Origin: Terrimicrobiaceae bacterium
GTDB lineage: Bacteria > Verrucomicrobiota > Verrucomicrobiia > Chthoniobacterales > Terrimicrobiaceae
DNA: 64,000 nucleotides
NCBI GenBank assembly: GCA_018402345.1
Contig: JAGYIV010000010.1
Coordinates: forward strand, 186,001-250,000
Reading direction: 5' to 3'
Positions 54,579-64,000 of the stretch are shown in pieces. Position 1 is the stretch's first letter. Each line of letters starts with the position of its first letter. The notes beneath the pieces are model-generated. The model had not been told where the DNA came from. It searched no databases and was given only the letters and a program-made list of their open reading frames with translations. Position numbers and translations under genes: made by a program.

Positions 54579-55193
54579 ATGATGTTTTCACGCCAGTCGA
54601 TCCTCTCCGCGGCCCTCGCCCTTGTCGTTGCCGGATGCGCCAACTACGACACTCGGCTCAACGATCGCAAGACAGCCTACCTCGGCACGGACGGTTCCAT
54701 CATTTCCCGCTCCAGCGCTTCCACACTCGCCGATGCCAATTCCTACTGGGACGGCGACGGCGTCACCGGCGCGCCGAGCATCGTCATCGACCTCTCCGAT
54801 CAACAGGCCTCGTTCTACAAAGGCCCGAAACTCGTCGGCGTCTCGGCCATCTCCAGCGGCCGCGAGGGATTCGGCACCCCCACTGGCCGCTACAAGATCA
54901 CCCAGAAAAACAAAGACCACGTCTCCAACCTCTACGGCGACTACGTGAGCCCCCAAGGCGACGTCCTCGTCCGCAACGTGGGGCTCAAAAAAGACCCCAT
55001 GCCACCCGGCGCGCGCTTCGCCGGCTCTCCCATGCCTTACTTCATGCGCCTCGGCCACACCGCCGTCGGACTCCACCAAGGCTTCCTCCCCGGAGTCCCC
55101 GACAGCCACGGCTGCATCCGCATGCCGGAACGCATGGTAAAAATTTTCTTCGCCCACGCCCCCCCCGGCACCCCCGTCACCATCGTCGACTGA
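54579..55193 (+). CDS. L,D-transpeptidase (YkuD domain) lipoprotein
   Basis: The 204-residue protein has a lipoprotein signal ending 'ALVVAGC' (Cys20) and a YkuD catalytic domain: 'IVIDLSDQQASFYKGPKLVG', 'SSGREGFGTPTGRYKITQKN', and the active-site 'HQGFLPGVPDSHGCIRMP' with His and Cys. These enzymes make 3-3 cross-links or attach proteins to peptidoglycan. It is the last core gene before the accessory island; the native TPR gene probably began directly downstream. Confidence 0.9.
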   Translation: MMFSRQSILSAALALVVAGCANYDTRLNDRKTAYLGTDGSIISRSSASTLADANSYWDGDGVTGAPSIVIDLSDQQASFYKGPKLVGVSAISSGREGFGTPTGRYKITQKNKDHVSNLYGDYVSPQGDVLVRNVGLKKDPMPPGARFAGSPMPYFMRLGHTAVGLHQGFLPGVPDSHGCIRMPERMVKIFFAHAPPGTPVTIVD

Positions 55194-55246: not shown

Positions 55247-55595
55247 GCGGACTTGGACCCCGCTGACTGTCCCCGCTTGCTTGCGCAAAAAACTCCGCGC
55301 CTTACGGTCCCTGTTCCATGTCTGTCCTTTACCCACTGCGCGGTGGACGCCGTAAAGCGTTTGTTCAAAAAATCCTTCGCAGCCGCGTTTTTTGGATTTC
55401 CCTCTTCGTCCTTCTCCTCCTCGGCGGCGTCGCCGCGAGCGGCCAGTGGGTTTACGGCAAATGGACCACCCGCCAGAGTTGGAAACTCATAGGCCATGCC
55501 GAAGCCAGGGCACGCGAAGGGCGGGTGGACGAAGCACTGATGAGCTTGGAGACCGCCTTGCGCCTCCGTCCCGATCATCCCACCGCCCTCCGCCA
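55247..55595 (+). repeat. direct repeat DR1, left copy (truncated TPR gene)
   Basis: This 349-bp segment matches 61301-61649 with five mismatches by eye. It holds about 70 bases of leader and the first ~92 codons of the TPR membrane protein gene. Sequence identity stops abruptly at 'ctccgcca' (55595), after which the DNA reads as a nitric oxide synthase fragment. The left flank joins the L,D-transpeptidase gene. The repeat-to-repeat distance is 6054 bp. Confidence 0.95.
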
Positions 55596-55611
55596 GTGGA
55601 GGCCCCACTGA
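55318..55611 (+). pseudogene. 5' fragment of TPR membrane protein gene
   Basis: The frame encodes 97 residues. The first ~92 match the N-terminus of the full-length gene at 61372: a cationic start, a membrane helix ('ISLFVLLLLGGVAASGQWVY') and the first TPR-like helix pair ('IGHAEARAREGRVDEALMSL'). It ends five codons after the repeat boundary, where the frame runs into unrelated DNA. A truncated duplicate, not a functional TPR protein. Confidence 0.85.
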
Positions 55612-55837
55612 AAGCGCCCCTGTCCCATCCCAACCTGCCTTGGTTTTCAAATCTTGGATTGAAGTGGTATGCCTTTCCCGTTCTTTCCGGCATACGCCTT
55701 CGCATAGGCGGCATCGAATTTTGCGCAGCCCCCTTCAACAATTGGTATATGGGCACCGAGATCGGCTCCCGCGATTCCACCACCTCTGGCAAGACCGCTC
55801 CCTCCTCCCCGACTACCTCCCCCGCAGGGATTCGTAA
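55596..55837 (+). pseudogene. decayed fragment of a nitric oxide synthase oxygenase domain
   Basis: Directly after the DR1 boundary, the third forward frame encodes a NOS oxygenase signature: 'HPNLPWFSNLGLKWYAFPVL', 'LRIGGIEFCAAPFNNWYMG' and 'TEIGSRD', about 60 residues covering the substrate-binding region, including the arginine-binding Glu of 'WYMGTEIG'. The frame then changes. About 25-30 expected codons seem lost and another frame continues with 'LWQDRSLLPDYL', which resembles the following NOS segment, before a stop. The heme-thiolate Cys region and the C-terminal part are missing. NOS is uncommon in Gram-negative bacteria. The rest of the interval to 55980 shows no gene. Confidence 0.75.
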
Positions 55838-55980
55838 AAAAACCGACGCGTATTTTCTCAAAAAGCGCAGACTTCAATTATTTATAAATGCATCTATTCT
55901 GATTACCCGAACGTATGATACCGGAGCAGGCATTCCGCCTGTGCTCACCAGTAAACATAACAACTAAGAATACATCCGTC

Positions 55981-56457
55981 ATGAAAACACTCCTGTCACT
56001 CACAGCCGCCATTGCCCTTATCGCTCACCCCGGTCAAGCCCTCGCAGATGAATCAAAAAACATTGTGGAAAACGCCGTCGCCGCCGGTAACTTCTCGACT
56101 CTCGCCACTGCGCTCACCGCAGCAGGTCTCATCGAGACCCTCTCCGGTCCGGGCCCCTTCACTGTTTTTGCGCCCACCGATGACGCCTTCGCCAAACTCC
56201 CCGAGGGCACCGTGGCAAGCCTCCTGAAACCAGAAAATAAAGACAAACTTATCGCCGTGCTCACCTACCATGTCGTGCCAGCTAAAGTGATGGCTGCCGA
56301 TGTGAAAACTGGACCGGCACCAACAGTCAACGGCAAGGAACTTCAAATCACCAAATCCGATGCCGGCGTCAAAGTGAACGATGCCAATGTGACCGCCACC
56401 GACATCGTTTCCAGCAACGGTGTCATCCACGTGGTTGATGCAGTCATTTTGCCCTGA
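55981..56457 (+). CDS. secreted fasciclin (FAS1) domain protein
   Basis: The 158-residue protein has a signal peptide (about residues 1-22, '[11 protein letters not shown]') and one complete FAS1 domain: '[20 protein letters not shown]', '[15 protein letters not shown]', '[15 protein letters not shown]' and '[13 protein letters not shown]'. Secreted bacterial FAS1 proteins are often adhesins or matrix proteins; no partner is clear here. It is a single-gene transcript ending in a strong terminator (56482-56517). It belongs to the DR1-flanked island. Confidence 0.9.
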
Positions 56458-57804: not shown

Positions 57805-57888
57805 TTATAAAATCACCATCCCTACGACCGCCATCGCGCAAGCGAGCAGCACGATCGCTGCGATGGTTGTGTGGAAACGCGCGGCCAT
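57805..57888 (-). pseudogene. 27-codon remnant of a porin-type signal sequence
   Basis: On the minus strand 'MAARFHTTIAAIVLLACAMA' followed by seven more residues and a stop matches the first ~20 residues of the porin gene at 60565 ('MAVRFHTIIAMIVLLACAMA'). It lies inside repeat R2. It may be a leftover signal sequence of a deleted second porin gene or a tiny membrane peptide. Confidence 0.5.
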
Positions 57889-57972
57889 CGGGGGGACCGA
57901 TACCAGATCGGCTGCGTGTGGCGAGCAGCGAAGGGAAGGAGCAAAAAAGAGAGCCGCCACGGCTCGGCGGGA
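57830..57972 (-). repeat. dispersed repeat R2, copy a
   Basis: About 143 bp closely resembling 60507-60648, with scattered differences. It contains the upstream region and signal-peptide codons of the porin. On the minus strand it holds a 27-codon frame. The rest of the interval 57638-58080 shows no other gene; transcription of the hydrolase gene at 58081 must start within it. Confidence 0.85.
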
Positions 57973-59256: not shown

Positions 59257-60565
59257 TCACAGTTCAATCGCGATTTGCATCCCGAGCACGAGCGCGTTGC
59301 CGTATTGGCCGAAGCCGCCGGGGCGGATGATGTATTGGATATCGGGCTGCACCGAAAATTCCTTCGTGACTTGGAAAATGTAGCCCGCGTTGAGCACCGA
59401 CTCGAACGCTCCGGAGGCTGATGTTTCCTGGCTGCGCGCGTAGGGCTCGCTGAAATTTCCGATCTGCCACGATGTGTAAAGATGATCGTCCGGACGCGCG
59501 CTCCACGGTCCGCGCCAGACGGCACCGGCGAATGCGTCCACCGGCATTTCGGTGACACCACTCGGTGGCGACCAGACCAAGCCGCCGAAGAGGGAGAATT
59601 GCGAGGTGTTGCTTTGTCCCGGATTTTCCTCCCAGAGCGTTTGCTGTCCCATCGCATAGAAGCCGAAAGGGCTGCCGCCCCATCCGCCGGGGTAGGACGC
59701 CTGCGGTTGGCTCGAGACATAGGCCCCGAGTTTGTAAACGCCGGGCAAACCGATTCCGTTGCCGCTGAGCTCCCGCCGGCCGCGGGTGAAGTGCCGGTCC
59801 TCCTGCACGGTGGCGAATTCTTTCGAGTGCGGAGTCCAAGCGATTTCCACCACGCCGAAGGTGCCATCACTCGGATCCAGTCCGAAATCCAAGCCGGTGT
59901 AGGGGCCGGTTTGTCCGAGGTCGGCGCGGGCCTGGAAAACTCCTGCGGTGAGAATGGTCTCCTTCATCGGCAGCCAACGCGCCCCCGCGAACCACGAAGC
60001 CGAGGCGCTGCCAGTGAAGGGCGAATTGAGTTCGAGGGCCATCGGCACAGAGTTGAGTCCTCCGCTCAAGAGCAAGTCGAACGCGGGAAGCGTGGCAAAA
60101 AACTGTTCCGCCGCCACGCGTCCGACGCCGATTTCCAATCGGTCATCGAAGGCTGTTTGCACGAGATATGCTTGGTAGAGAAAGAGCGTATTCCCATCCC
60201 ATGCCTGCGAGACGGTGAACGCGTTGCCAATCGTCTCGGAAAGATTGTTCCCCGCGCCGGAAACCGCCGAAACCTGCAGCCCGCCCCCACGCCAGCCGAA
60301 GGGCTCCCTCCAGAGTCAATCCGAACGGCAGGTATTGCGAATAGGCCACACCCTGCGATTTGCCGCCGACCGGATTGCCTTGAAAGACGCCGAAGTAATC
60401 GACGAAAAACTCGATGCCGACGGGTTCGGCGCCGTTTTGTAAAAGCGAAGAAATGCGCGAGAGGACCGTGTCGGTCGCCTCGGGATTTTCCGCATGCGCC
60501 GGCCGCGCCATCGCGCAAGCGAGCAGCACGATCATTGCGATGATTGTGTGGAAACGCACCGCCAT
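59257..60565 (-). CDS. OprB-like carbohydrate-selective porin, frameshifted
   Basis: Corrected length is about 435 residues: signal peptide ('IIAMIVLLACAMARPAHAEN'), then an outer-membrane beta-barrel of OprB type with 'VDYFGVFQGNPVGG', 'NTLFLYQAYLVQTAFDDR', 'LEIGVGRVAAEQFFATL' and C-terminal 'YIIRPGGFGQYGNALVLGMQ'. The last residues include a terminal-type 'IEL', near the usual aromatic end. One extra base at 60301-60303 ('gagcccttc' for 'gagccttc' on the minus strand) breaks the frame between 'LTLEGA' and 'FGWRGGGLQVSAVSGAGNNL'. The gene converges on the hydrolase gene and its leader is duplicated at R2a. Confidence 0.8.
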
Positions 60566-60648
60566 CGGGGGCTTATACCAGATTGGCCGTGGGTGGCGAG
60601 CAGCGAAGGGAAAGAGCAAAAAAGAGGGCCGCCACGGATCGGCAGGGA
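60507..60648 (-). repeat. dispersed repeat R2, copy b
   Basis: Second copy of the ~143-bp repeat at 57830-57972. Here it holds the porin leader and signal-peptide codons and is part of an otherwise intact gene. Confidence 0.85.
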
Positions 60649-61300
60649 TTCATTTTATACCAATGTCTCACTAAGATTGCAGATTCGCGAAAGCGCTCAT
60701 GGACGCCAGCGTCTCGCCTGACACCGAACAACTTCGCGTCCGAAGACATCACCTCGCAAGCCAAACCCCTCGCCACTGCTGGGAATTGATGGAGGAGCAG
60801 TTGGTGGCCGCAACCAGTCACGCCCTGCCGCAGGCGCAGTGCTCAGACAAACCAAACCTCATCGACGACGCATCCTCGGAAGGTATGTCTGGCTCAAGCG
60901 CCGGAAAGCGGTGAAGGCCGCCGCTGCTTCAGTCACCTGATTCTGGAACGGTCTTAAAAACCAGAGCCGGCCTCGCCGCGAAAGTGGGCGCTGACGCGCC
61001 TTTCGTGCGACAAGAGCCACCCCTTCGTTCCCAAGGGTCAGATCGCCGATATGCCCCAAGATTCAGGCGCGAACGCGCCGTCCTTTCCTTTTCAAACTTC
61101 AGGTTTCAGGTCTCAACCCTCCTCTTTCTTCATCTTCCCCTCCGTGCCTTGGTGCCTCCGTGAGAGCATTATCGCCCCCCCGCAGAGACGCCGAGGCGCA
61201 GAGAGAAACTCGCCCGCGAATGAACCGACTGGATTCGAATCAAAATCGTCTGGGGGACAGCCGAAAAAATTCCTGACAGCCAGACTCCTCCTCGCGTGGA
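60649..61300. other. non-coding or decayed stretch before the right DR1 copy
   Basis: About 650 bp with no gene I can support. Short open frames occur on both strands but have no family resemblance. It includes an imperfect GC-rich palindrome at about 60978-61009 (gcgaaagtgggcgc tga cgcgcctttcg), which could form a hairpin. It also includes the motif 'gccttggtgcctccgtgaga' with 'gcagagacgccgaggcgcag' at 61146-61205, which recalls a repetitive sequence found in many environmental bacterial genomes. It may be what remains of a mobile or repetitive element. Confidence 0.45.
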
Positions 61301-61649
61301 GCGGACTTGGACCCCGCTGACTGTCCCCGCTGGCTTGCGCAAAAAACTCCGCGCTTTACGGTCCCTGTTCCATGTCTGTCCTTTACCCACTGCGCGGTGG
61401 ACGCCGTAAAGCGTTTGTTCAAAAAATCCTTCGCAGCCGCGTTTTTTGGATTTCCCTCTCCGTCCTTCTCCTCCTCGGGGGCGTCGCCGCGAGCGGCCAG
61501 TGGGTTTACGGCAAATGGACCACCCGCCAGAGCTGGAAACTCATAGGCCATGCCGAAGCCAGGGCACGCGAAGGGCGGGTGGACGAAGCACTGATGAGCT
61601 TGGAGACCGCCTTGCGCCTCCGTCCCGATCATCCCACCGCCCTCCGCCA
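61301..61649 (+). repeat. direct repeat DR1, right copy
   Basis: 349 bp matching 55247-55595. Here the sequence continues into the full TPR gene; upstream the identity ends at 'gcggacttgg' (61301). Confidence 0.95.
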
Positions 61650-64000
61650 TCTCGCCCAGATTCGCACCTCCCTCGGCCAGCGGAAAGAAGCCCTCGCGGC
61701 GTGGCAGAGACTCGCCGCCGCCAACGCACTCACCGCATCCGATGCCGAAGCCTACGGCCTCCTCGCCGGCGTCGAGGGAGAGTGGGCCCTTGCCAACCTC
61801 ATCATCGATGGGTTCAGCGCCGGTCACCAAGGCCCCGAACCCGACCTCCTCCGCGCAAACATCCTCGCCATGCGCGGCGACCAGGCCGGCGCCGAGCAAT
61901 CCCTCCGCGCCGCCATGGCCAAAGACCACACGGAACGCAGTCGCGCCATCCTCGCCCGATTCCTCATCACCCACCGCCTGAACTCCTCCACCACGCCAGA
62001 AATTCTCGACCTCCACCGCGACCTCATCACCCTGCAGGACGACACCGGCGCCCAAGCCCTTGCTGCAGCCCTCCTCGCTGGAATCGTCCCTCCCGAGGAA
62101 CGAGCCTCGTGGCGCGACTCCCTCCGCAAGCATCCCAAATCCACACCCGCGTTGCTCCTCGCCGCCGATTCCGCCGAAGCCGCCTCAGACCCCGCCGCGA
62201 TTCCGCTTCTGGCCGCCCAAGTCTCCTCCCGTCTCGAAAAATCCCCCGACGACCAACGCCGCGCCGGCTTCCTCTGGCTCACCCGCCATGGCCAACCCGA
62301 ACGCGCTCTCCGCCTCCTCACCCTCGACGAGGCCCTCGCCGACCCCGATTCCTTCACCGCCTGGATCGAAGCCCTCGCCTCCACCAGCCAGACGGAAAAA
62401 ATCCCCGAAACCCTCGACCTCCCCGCAAACCCTCTTCCCGCCTACCGCTCCGCGCTCTACCGCGCCCGCGCCCTGCAACTTCTCGGCCGCGCCGACGACT
62501 CCGCCCAAGCCTACCAAGCCGCCCTCTCCGCCAGCTCCAGCAACTCCACCGAGACCCTCCGCGTCCTCACCTTCCTCCACGATGCCGGTGAAACCGCCCT
62601 CTTCGAAACTGAACTCCAAAACTCCTCGCCACCCCCGACACCGCACGTCCAGTCCTCGACACCCTTCTACCCATCGTCGCCAAGCGCCGCGACATCGAGA
62701 CCCTGCGCCACTTTCACACCCTCGCCCTCGCCGCGCCGGGCGTGCTTAACAAAACCCAAATCCAAAACCAAATTGACTACTGCGATCTCGTCCTCGGCCG
62801 CCCCGTCGACACCCAAGCCATCGCCCAACTCGCACGCCGCAATCCCGACAACCTCCCCTTCCGCACCACCCACGCCCTCGCCCTCTTCCGCGCCGGGGAA
62901 AACGCCCAAGCCCTTTCCGAACTCTCCACCCCACGCGATCCCGCCGAAAACCCCACCCTCCTCGCCCGCCTCGCCACCATTCAAGCCCTCGCCCACACAG
63001 CCCTCGCCGATCCCGTCGAAGCCGCCAAAACCCTCGCCCTCCTCGACCCCGCCCTTCTCACGCAGCAAGAAGCCGCTCTAATCCGCTCCACCCGCGCCAC
63101 ACCAGAAGCCACCGCCAGCCTCGTCCGCCGCACAAAAACCACCGCCGCCGAAAACCGCCTCCTCACCGCCGCCCTGCTTGCTCGCGAGAAAAATTTCGAC
63201 GCCGCCCTCGCCCTCGTGTCACTCGACGAGGTCATCGCCAAGCCTGAGACATTCATCCCCTGGCTCGACGCCTGCGCCGCCACCGGCCGCTGGAACGACA
63301 CCCTCGCCGCCCTCTCCAGACCCGACAATCCGCTCCCCTCCCACACCAGCGCCCTCCTCACCGGTATTGCCAAAAAAAACCTCGGCCAGCCCTTGGAAGC
63401 CCGCGCCGCCTTCGACTCCGCCCTCGCCGCCTCCGCCGACGACCCTGCGAAATTCACCTCCACCCTCGCCGCCCTCTTCCAAGCCCGCGAAACCGAACTT
63501 TTCGAAAAAAACCTCGCCACCCTCGAAGGGCGCCCCGACCTCGCCCGCGCCGCCATTAAGACCCTCCTCCCAGCCATCCAAGCCCAGCGCGACTCCGCGC
63601 TCACCCTGCGCTTCTACAAACTCACCGCCGTCGCTCTGCCCGACCTCTTCCAGCAGGCCGCCACCCAAAACGACCTCGCCTACCTCCGCCTCCTCCTCAA
63701 CCAGCCCCCCCCGCTCGAACCCCTCAAACAACGCGCCGCCGCCGAACCCTCGAACCTCTCCGCCCTCGCCACTCTCGCCCTCGCCCATCTCCAGAAAAGC
63801 GACCCCCGCCGCCCTCGCCGTCTTCCGGGAATTCCGCCCCGAGTCTGATTTCCAAGCCCTCCCGCCACGCATCAAAGCCATTTACGCCGCCACCCTCGCC
63901 GCCAACGGCCAAAAAGCCCCCGCCACACGCATCGCCGCCTCCATCCCCGCCGACAGCCTTTCGCTCCAAGAAGAAGCCTTCCTCCAGACCCACTTGGAGG
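61372..64000 (+). CDS. large membrane-anchored TPR protein (3' partial, two frameshifts)
   Basis: The protein starts with a short basic segment, one membrane helix ('ISLSVLLLLGGVAASGQWVY', residues about 25-44) and then a long extracytoplasmic series of helical TPR-like repeats rich in Ala and Leu ('ALMSLETALRLRPDHPTALR', 'DLLRANILAMRGDQAGAEQS', 'ALFRAGENAQALSELSTPRD'). The window ends inside it, after about 876 codons. The frame is broken twice: one A appears lost in the run at 62618-62621, and one C gained in CCCCC at 63803-63807. With both corrected, the frame is open to base 64000. Function unknown; such anchored TPR proteins often organise envelope assemblies. Confidence 0.8.

Follow-up and report, generated by a model that had tools for sequence, protein, structure and literature searches.

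Remnant of a probable second nitric oxide synthase gene at a synteny break in a verrucomicrobial genome

Does a fragment of a nitric oxide synthase (NOS) oxygenase gene at the edge of a variable genomic region point to a distant donor, or does it belong to the history of the lineage that carries it? The window analyzed here is a stretch of 64,000 nucleotides, positions 186001-250000 of the 659-kb contig C4 in the host genome (G000). A first-pass annotation of this DNA had described such a fragment in a probable member of the Verrucomicrobiota, as the remnant of a gene probably cut when a genomic island formed, and had considered a donor with an intact gene worth finding. The host does belong to this phylum (‘Spartobacteria’). 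The features that matter for the argument are the following:

54579 to 55193, plus strand: L,D-transpeptidase (YkuD) gene (PF03734, E 2.3e-19), the last syntenic gene before the break
55247 to 55595, plus strand: left copy of the direct repeat DR1, 349 bp, a truncated duplicate that covers the first 93 codons of a TPR-protein gene together with its upstream region
55599 to 55775, plus strand: NOS oxygenase remnant (PF02898), equivalent to residues ~193-251 of an intact NOS
55776 to 55837, plus strand: carboxy-terminal NOS remnant, FHHLWQDRSLLPDYLPRRDS followed by a stop, equivalent to residues ~345-360 and in another frame
55915 to 56457, plus strand: fasciclin-domain protein gene (PF02469, E 1.1e-38), immediately downstream of the relic
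61301 to 61649, plus strand: right copy of DR1, at its native site where the TPR gene begins (open reading frame from 61372)

A profile search of the whole genome with PF02898 returned two matching places, namely C4:241599-241868, which is the relic in the window (E 2.5e-22, with 79.6 bits where the cut-off is 22.7), and C8:85319-86389. The open frame at 55392-55964 matched NO_synthase (PF02898, E 1.5e-22) and no other Pfam family in hmmscan, in agreement with the family originally proposed. The first part of the relic consists of 59 stop-free codons that include the substrate-site region WYMGTEIGSRD, and it shares 78% amino acid identity with the intact NOS of the host on contig C8 (the resident gene) and likewise with that of the host's nearest relative (G005). 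At the DNA level, window positions 55606-55775 align to the resident gene with 79% identity and positions 55775-55820 align to its 3′ end with 83% identity over 46 bp. This alignment places ‘LGLKWYAFPVL’, ‘FNNWYMGTEIGSRD’ and the frame-shifted ‘LWQDRSLLPDYLPRRDS’ with its stop in one and the same NOS gene. The internal deletion and frame change that had been read from the letters are thus real: 280 bp are missing where the two parts meet, a length not divisible by three, so that the frame changes, no continuous reading frame extends to the C-terminus, and a stop codon at 55837 ends the relic. The relic begins at about residue 193 of an intact NOS, without the heme Cys69 and the N-terminal half, and the pterin-site Trp330/332 (resident numbering) also fall outside it, while substrate Glu246 lies inside. 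Since both the heme-ligand and the pterin-site regions are lacking, an active NOS is impossible, and the segment 55599-55837 is a degenerate piece of a NOS oxygenase gene, a pseudogene.

An intact gene did not have to be sought in a foreign donor, as it occurs in the same genome and in nearly all members of the genus. The resident gene at C8:85319-86389 encodes 368 amino acids with no internal stops (PF02898, E 2.5e-149, profile positions 5-361), and its full-length frame contains heme Cys69, substrate Glu246 and pterin-site Trp330/332. Almost the whole protein can be aligned to the solved bacterial NOS 2flq (E 3.6e-120) and also to the NOS of Bacillus subtilis, and the regions around the heme Cys, the substrate Glu and the pterin-site Trp are kept; the relic belongs to the same family as the B. 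subtilis enzyme but is frameshifted and has lost the heme-ligand half and the pterin-site segment. Most bacterial NOS proteins consist of the oxygenase only (PMC9500659). By analogy, the resident enzyme should make NO from arginine with electrons supplied by cellular reductases.

The distribution of NOS was surveyed in a sample of 97 relatives. Besides the host, the genus is represented by 15 species, of which 12 have the gene, and the three without a match are 64%, 82% and 82% complete; none of the 10 genomes from other genera of the family has it. In every genus member whose NOS neighborhood was examined the order plsX-fabH-nos is found, and in about half of these neighborhoods NOS is flanked on its other side by an HDOD-like gene and cheD (the names plsX, fabH, HDOD and cheD come from reading the translations). 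Given this conserved locus, the gene on C8 is the ancestral ortholog and the piece in the window an extra copy. The window locus was rejected as the ancestral NOS site, as no relative has NOS beside the L,D-transpeptidase gene. NOS thus appears to be core in the genus. Replacement of the resident gene by recombination was suspected from its 77% identity to the G005 protein, against 92% for plsX and fabH. This idea was dropped because synonymous divergence between the two genomes is alike in the three genes (plsX 0.99, fabH 1.47, NOS 1.19), so that NOS evolves faster at the protein level only. Within the same order, a 1123-amino-acid open reading frame (L116:1249-4617, minus strand, genome G090) places a full NOS oxygenase domain after a BFD-like [2Fe-2S] domain and an FAD/NAD reductase. 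The NOS of Sorangium likewise has its reductase on the N-terminal side.

The rarity of NOS that had been assumed for Gram-negative bacteria therefore depends on the level considered: it holds for the phylum, where 12 of 288 sampled genomes have the gene in a patchy pattern, but not for this genus. NOS is also already known from freshwater Verrucomicrobia. The relevant part of a 2017 study reports NOS in metagenome-assembled genomes (MAGs) such as Opitutae-Tous-C4FEB and calls it ‘common to other reconstructed MAGs’ (PMC5673642). Those organisms share phylum, freshwater habitat and the presence of NOS with our host, but that part of the study describes neither a broken second copy, as in the host, nor the plsX-fabH-nos linkage of the genus. 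A further difference from known enzymes concerns a position near the heme pocket, at which Ile is stated to occur in all bacterial NOS (PMC6104048). An alignment with the B. subtilis protein, from which the equivalent of its Ile218 was mapped, places Leu there in the resident NOS. Among the sequences gathered, Leu occupies this position in the proteins of the verrucomicrobial clade (the resident gene, L001, and the congeners' loci L004, L005, L007-L010, L014-L016, L019, L024 and L025; also L028-L032). Most of the others have Ile, and a sizeable minority, which includes the order-level NOS and some from Bacillota, have Val. On the basis of this alignment, the statement looks too general.

To which NOS the relic is related is clear from the protein tree, in which it forms a clade with the NOS of the host and of G005 (support 100/99), and a Cys in the motif FCAAPFN occurs in these three only among the aligned sequences. 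Within the trio its position is weakly supported, with the relic joined to G005 at 87/57. A recent duplication of the resident gene followed by decay in place would fit the observations that the resident gene is the closest match at the DNA level (79%) and that the synonymous divergence (dS) of 0.86 between the two is among the lowest from the relic to any intact NOS of the genus. The kind of change between them makes this origin unlikely. The 39 changes in 59 codons comprise 22 synonymous and 17 nonsynonymous ones, whereas about 9:30 would be expected without selection, as under neutral decay alone (P 1.8e-5), and much of the divergence therefore arose while the sequences were functional. The two sequences are also about as far apart as different species of the genus are, in contrast to the 1.4% that separates the two copies of DR1. 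Part of the difference reflects change on the branch of the resident gene itself, but the relic branch alone shows an excess of synonymous changes as well (12 of 24, P 0.006). The substitution pattern of the relic thus shows what is probably past purifying selection, on a once-working paralog or on the gene of a sister lineage. The ratio of 12:12 on the relic branch does not differ clearly from 16:6 on the two intact branches together in this small sample; together with the change of FNG to FNN in the relic, at a position where every intact sequence aligned has Gly, it may hint at later relaxed constraint.

Our preferred explanation is thus that the relic is very probably a dead second NOS gene, distinct from the resident gene but of the same sublineage, a once-functional extra copy that was broken in a variable region. 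Two origins are compatible with it, duplication and transfer from a sister lineage, and these are indistinguishable because the signal comes from no more than 59 codons, in which synonymous sites are almost saturated (dS of about 0.9 to 2.3 between the NOS sequences of the relic, G000 and G005). Acquisition with foreign DNA, perhaps in an already truncated state, from a G005-like donor, a related species within the sublineage whose G+C content is lower, is a serious but tentative candidate for which the odds are somewhat below even. The third-position G+C of the relic (0.63) lies between that of the resident gene (0.78) and that of G005 (0.56), but AT-ward change is also expected of a decaying pseudogene, and the grouping with G005 that would agree with such a donor is weak. 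The region beyond the L,D-transpeptidase gene, which varies between relatives and contains a type I restriction system and HicA/BrnT toxin genes, would suit an acquisition too, but an unsystematic look for integrases yielded none, and no attachment repeat was found either. An intact copy of this second NOS type was found in none of the genomes examined. A viral carrier was considered and rejected, as the single NOS on a viral-labelled contig is distant. That gene (L206, IMGVR_UViG_3300027857_000012) is seemingly full-length, is 51% identical to the resident NOS and lies on a 134-kb contig; it could be phage-borne or belong to a mislabelled bacterial contig.

The genomic setting agrees with a gene broken in a variable region. 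On the left side, the order of genes from metG to ClC and the L,D-transpeptidase is common to G005 and, in part, to other congeners, but past the L,D-transpeptidase gene this agreement ends, and the relic sits exactly at this synteny break. A fasciclin gene at the corresponding place is absent in the relatives examined. The first 20 kb to the right of the break hold this gene, a choloylglycine-hydrolase-family gene, and the restriction and toxin genes mentioned above, as is usual in variable regions. About 790 bp after the L,D-transpeptidase gene, G005 has a tRNA-Asn, and an identical tRNA lies 62 kb downstream in the host. A simple tRNA-Asn island was considered, but no copy of the tRNA-Asn end (att) is present within the window and the interval contains housekeeping-type genes. 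Because the open reading frames farther right resemble such genes (guaA-, recF- and priA-like, as read from their translations), the whole 62-kb interval is not called one island. The same variable region also contains a 143-bp direct repeat with 88% identity (57829-57971 and 60506-60646). Parts of a short interspersed repeat at about 60986-61082 (within 60876-61174) match more than 20 other places in the genome at 71-93% identity, and a 300-bp version recurs at C4:250833-251130 (94%).

The junction itself joins the relic to DR1. The two copies of this repeat are 98.6% identical with 5 mismatches, and the match at the protein level spans residues 1-93; the left copy is the truncated duplicate since the right one runs on as a longer gene. 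It occupies the place expected for the 5′ half of NOS and directly abuts the 5′ end of the relic, with NOS homology detectable from within ~13 bp of the end of DR1 (55595). The earlier reading that homology starts at the DR1 boundary is accordingly correct within the resolution of the alignment. An assembly misjoin might be suspected with a near-identical 349-bp repeat only 6 kb away, but it is highly improbable: the two repeats show 5 differences and are each flanked by unique sequence, and the NOS piece has no exact match elsewhere in the host genome and lies well within a long contig. With a divergence of ~21% from the resident gene, compared with 1.4% for DR1, the NOS copy long predates the duplication of DR1. 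The TPR gene at 61372-63848 is seemingly split by a frame change at about 62600-62740 (open reading frames 61372-63081 and 62742-63848), possibly as a second pseudogene or through a sequence error.

Under the preferred explanation, an extra NOS copy, whether it was a paralog or had come in from a lineage close to the host, would have been functional for some time. The joining of DR1 to it, in the variable region beyond the L,D-transpeptidase gene, would then have broken it and cost it its first half, and a separate 280-bp deletion would have removed the pterin-site segment and shifted the frame. We infer that it was the TPR junction that severed the gene and removed its 5′ half; alternatively, the DR1 join may have landed on a gene that was broken before. 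The proposal that NOS was cut when the island formed is plausible in this respect, with the relic at a synteny break beside a truncated DR1, as one possible order of events. As an intact NOS remained, the loss of the second was probably of little consequence.

As such, the relic is an ordinary pseudogene, left by a second copy of NOS. A more far-reaching idea, to which we give little credence, is that the NOS of the genus, with its plsX-fabH linkage and Leu in the heme pocket, represents a distinct verrucomicrobial clade with kinetics of its own and a role linked to membrane-lipid synthesis, and that the relic records a former two-NOS state. What the relic does indicate is that the lineage once held two NOS genes, for which no distant donor is needed. 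A by-product of the analysis is that NOS, though patchy in the phylum, is apparently core in a freshwater genus of the Verrucomicrobiota, at a conserved fatty-acid/phospholipid locus, and a defined Gram-negative group is now at hand for asking what bacterial NOS does.
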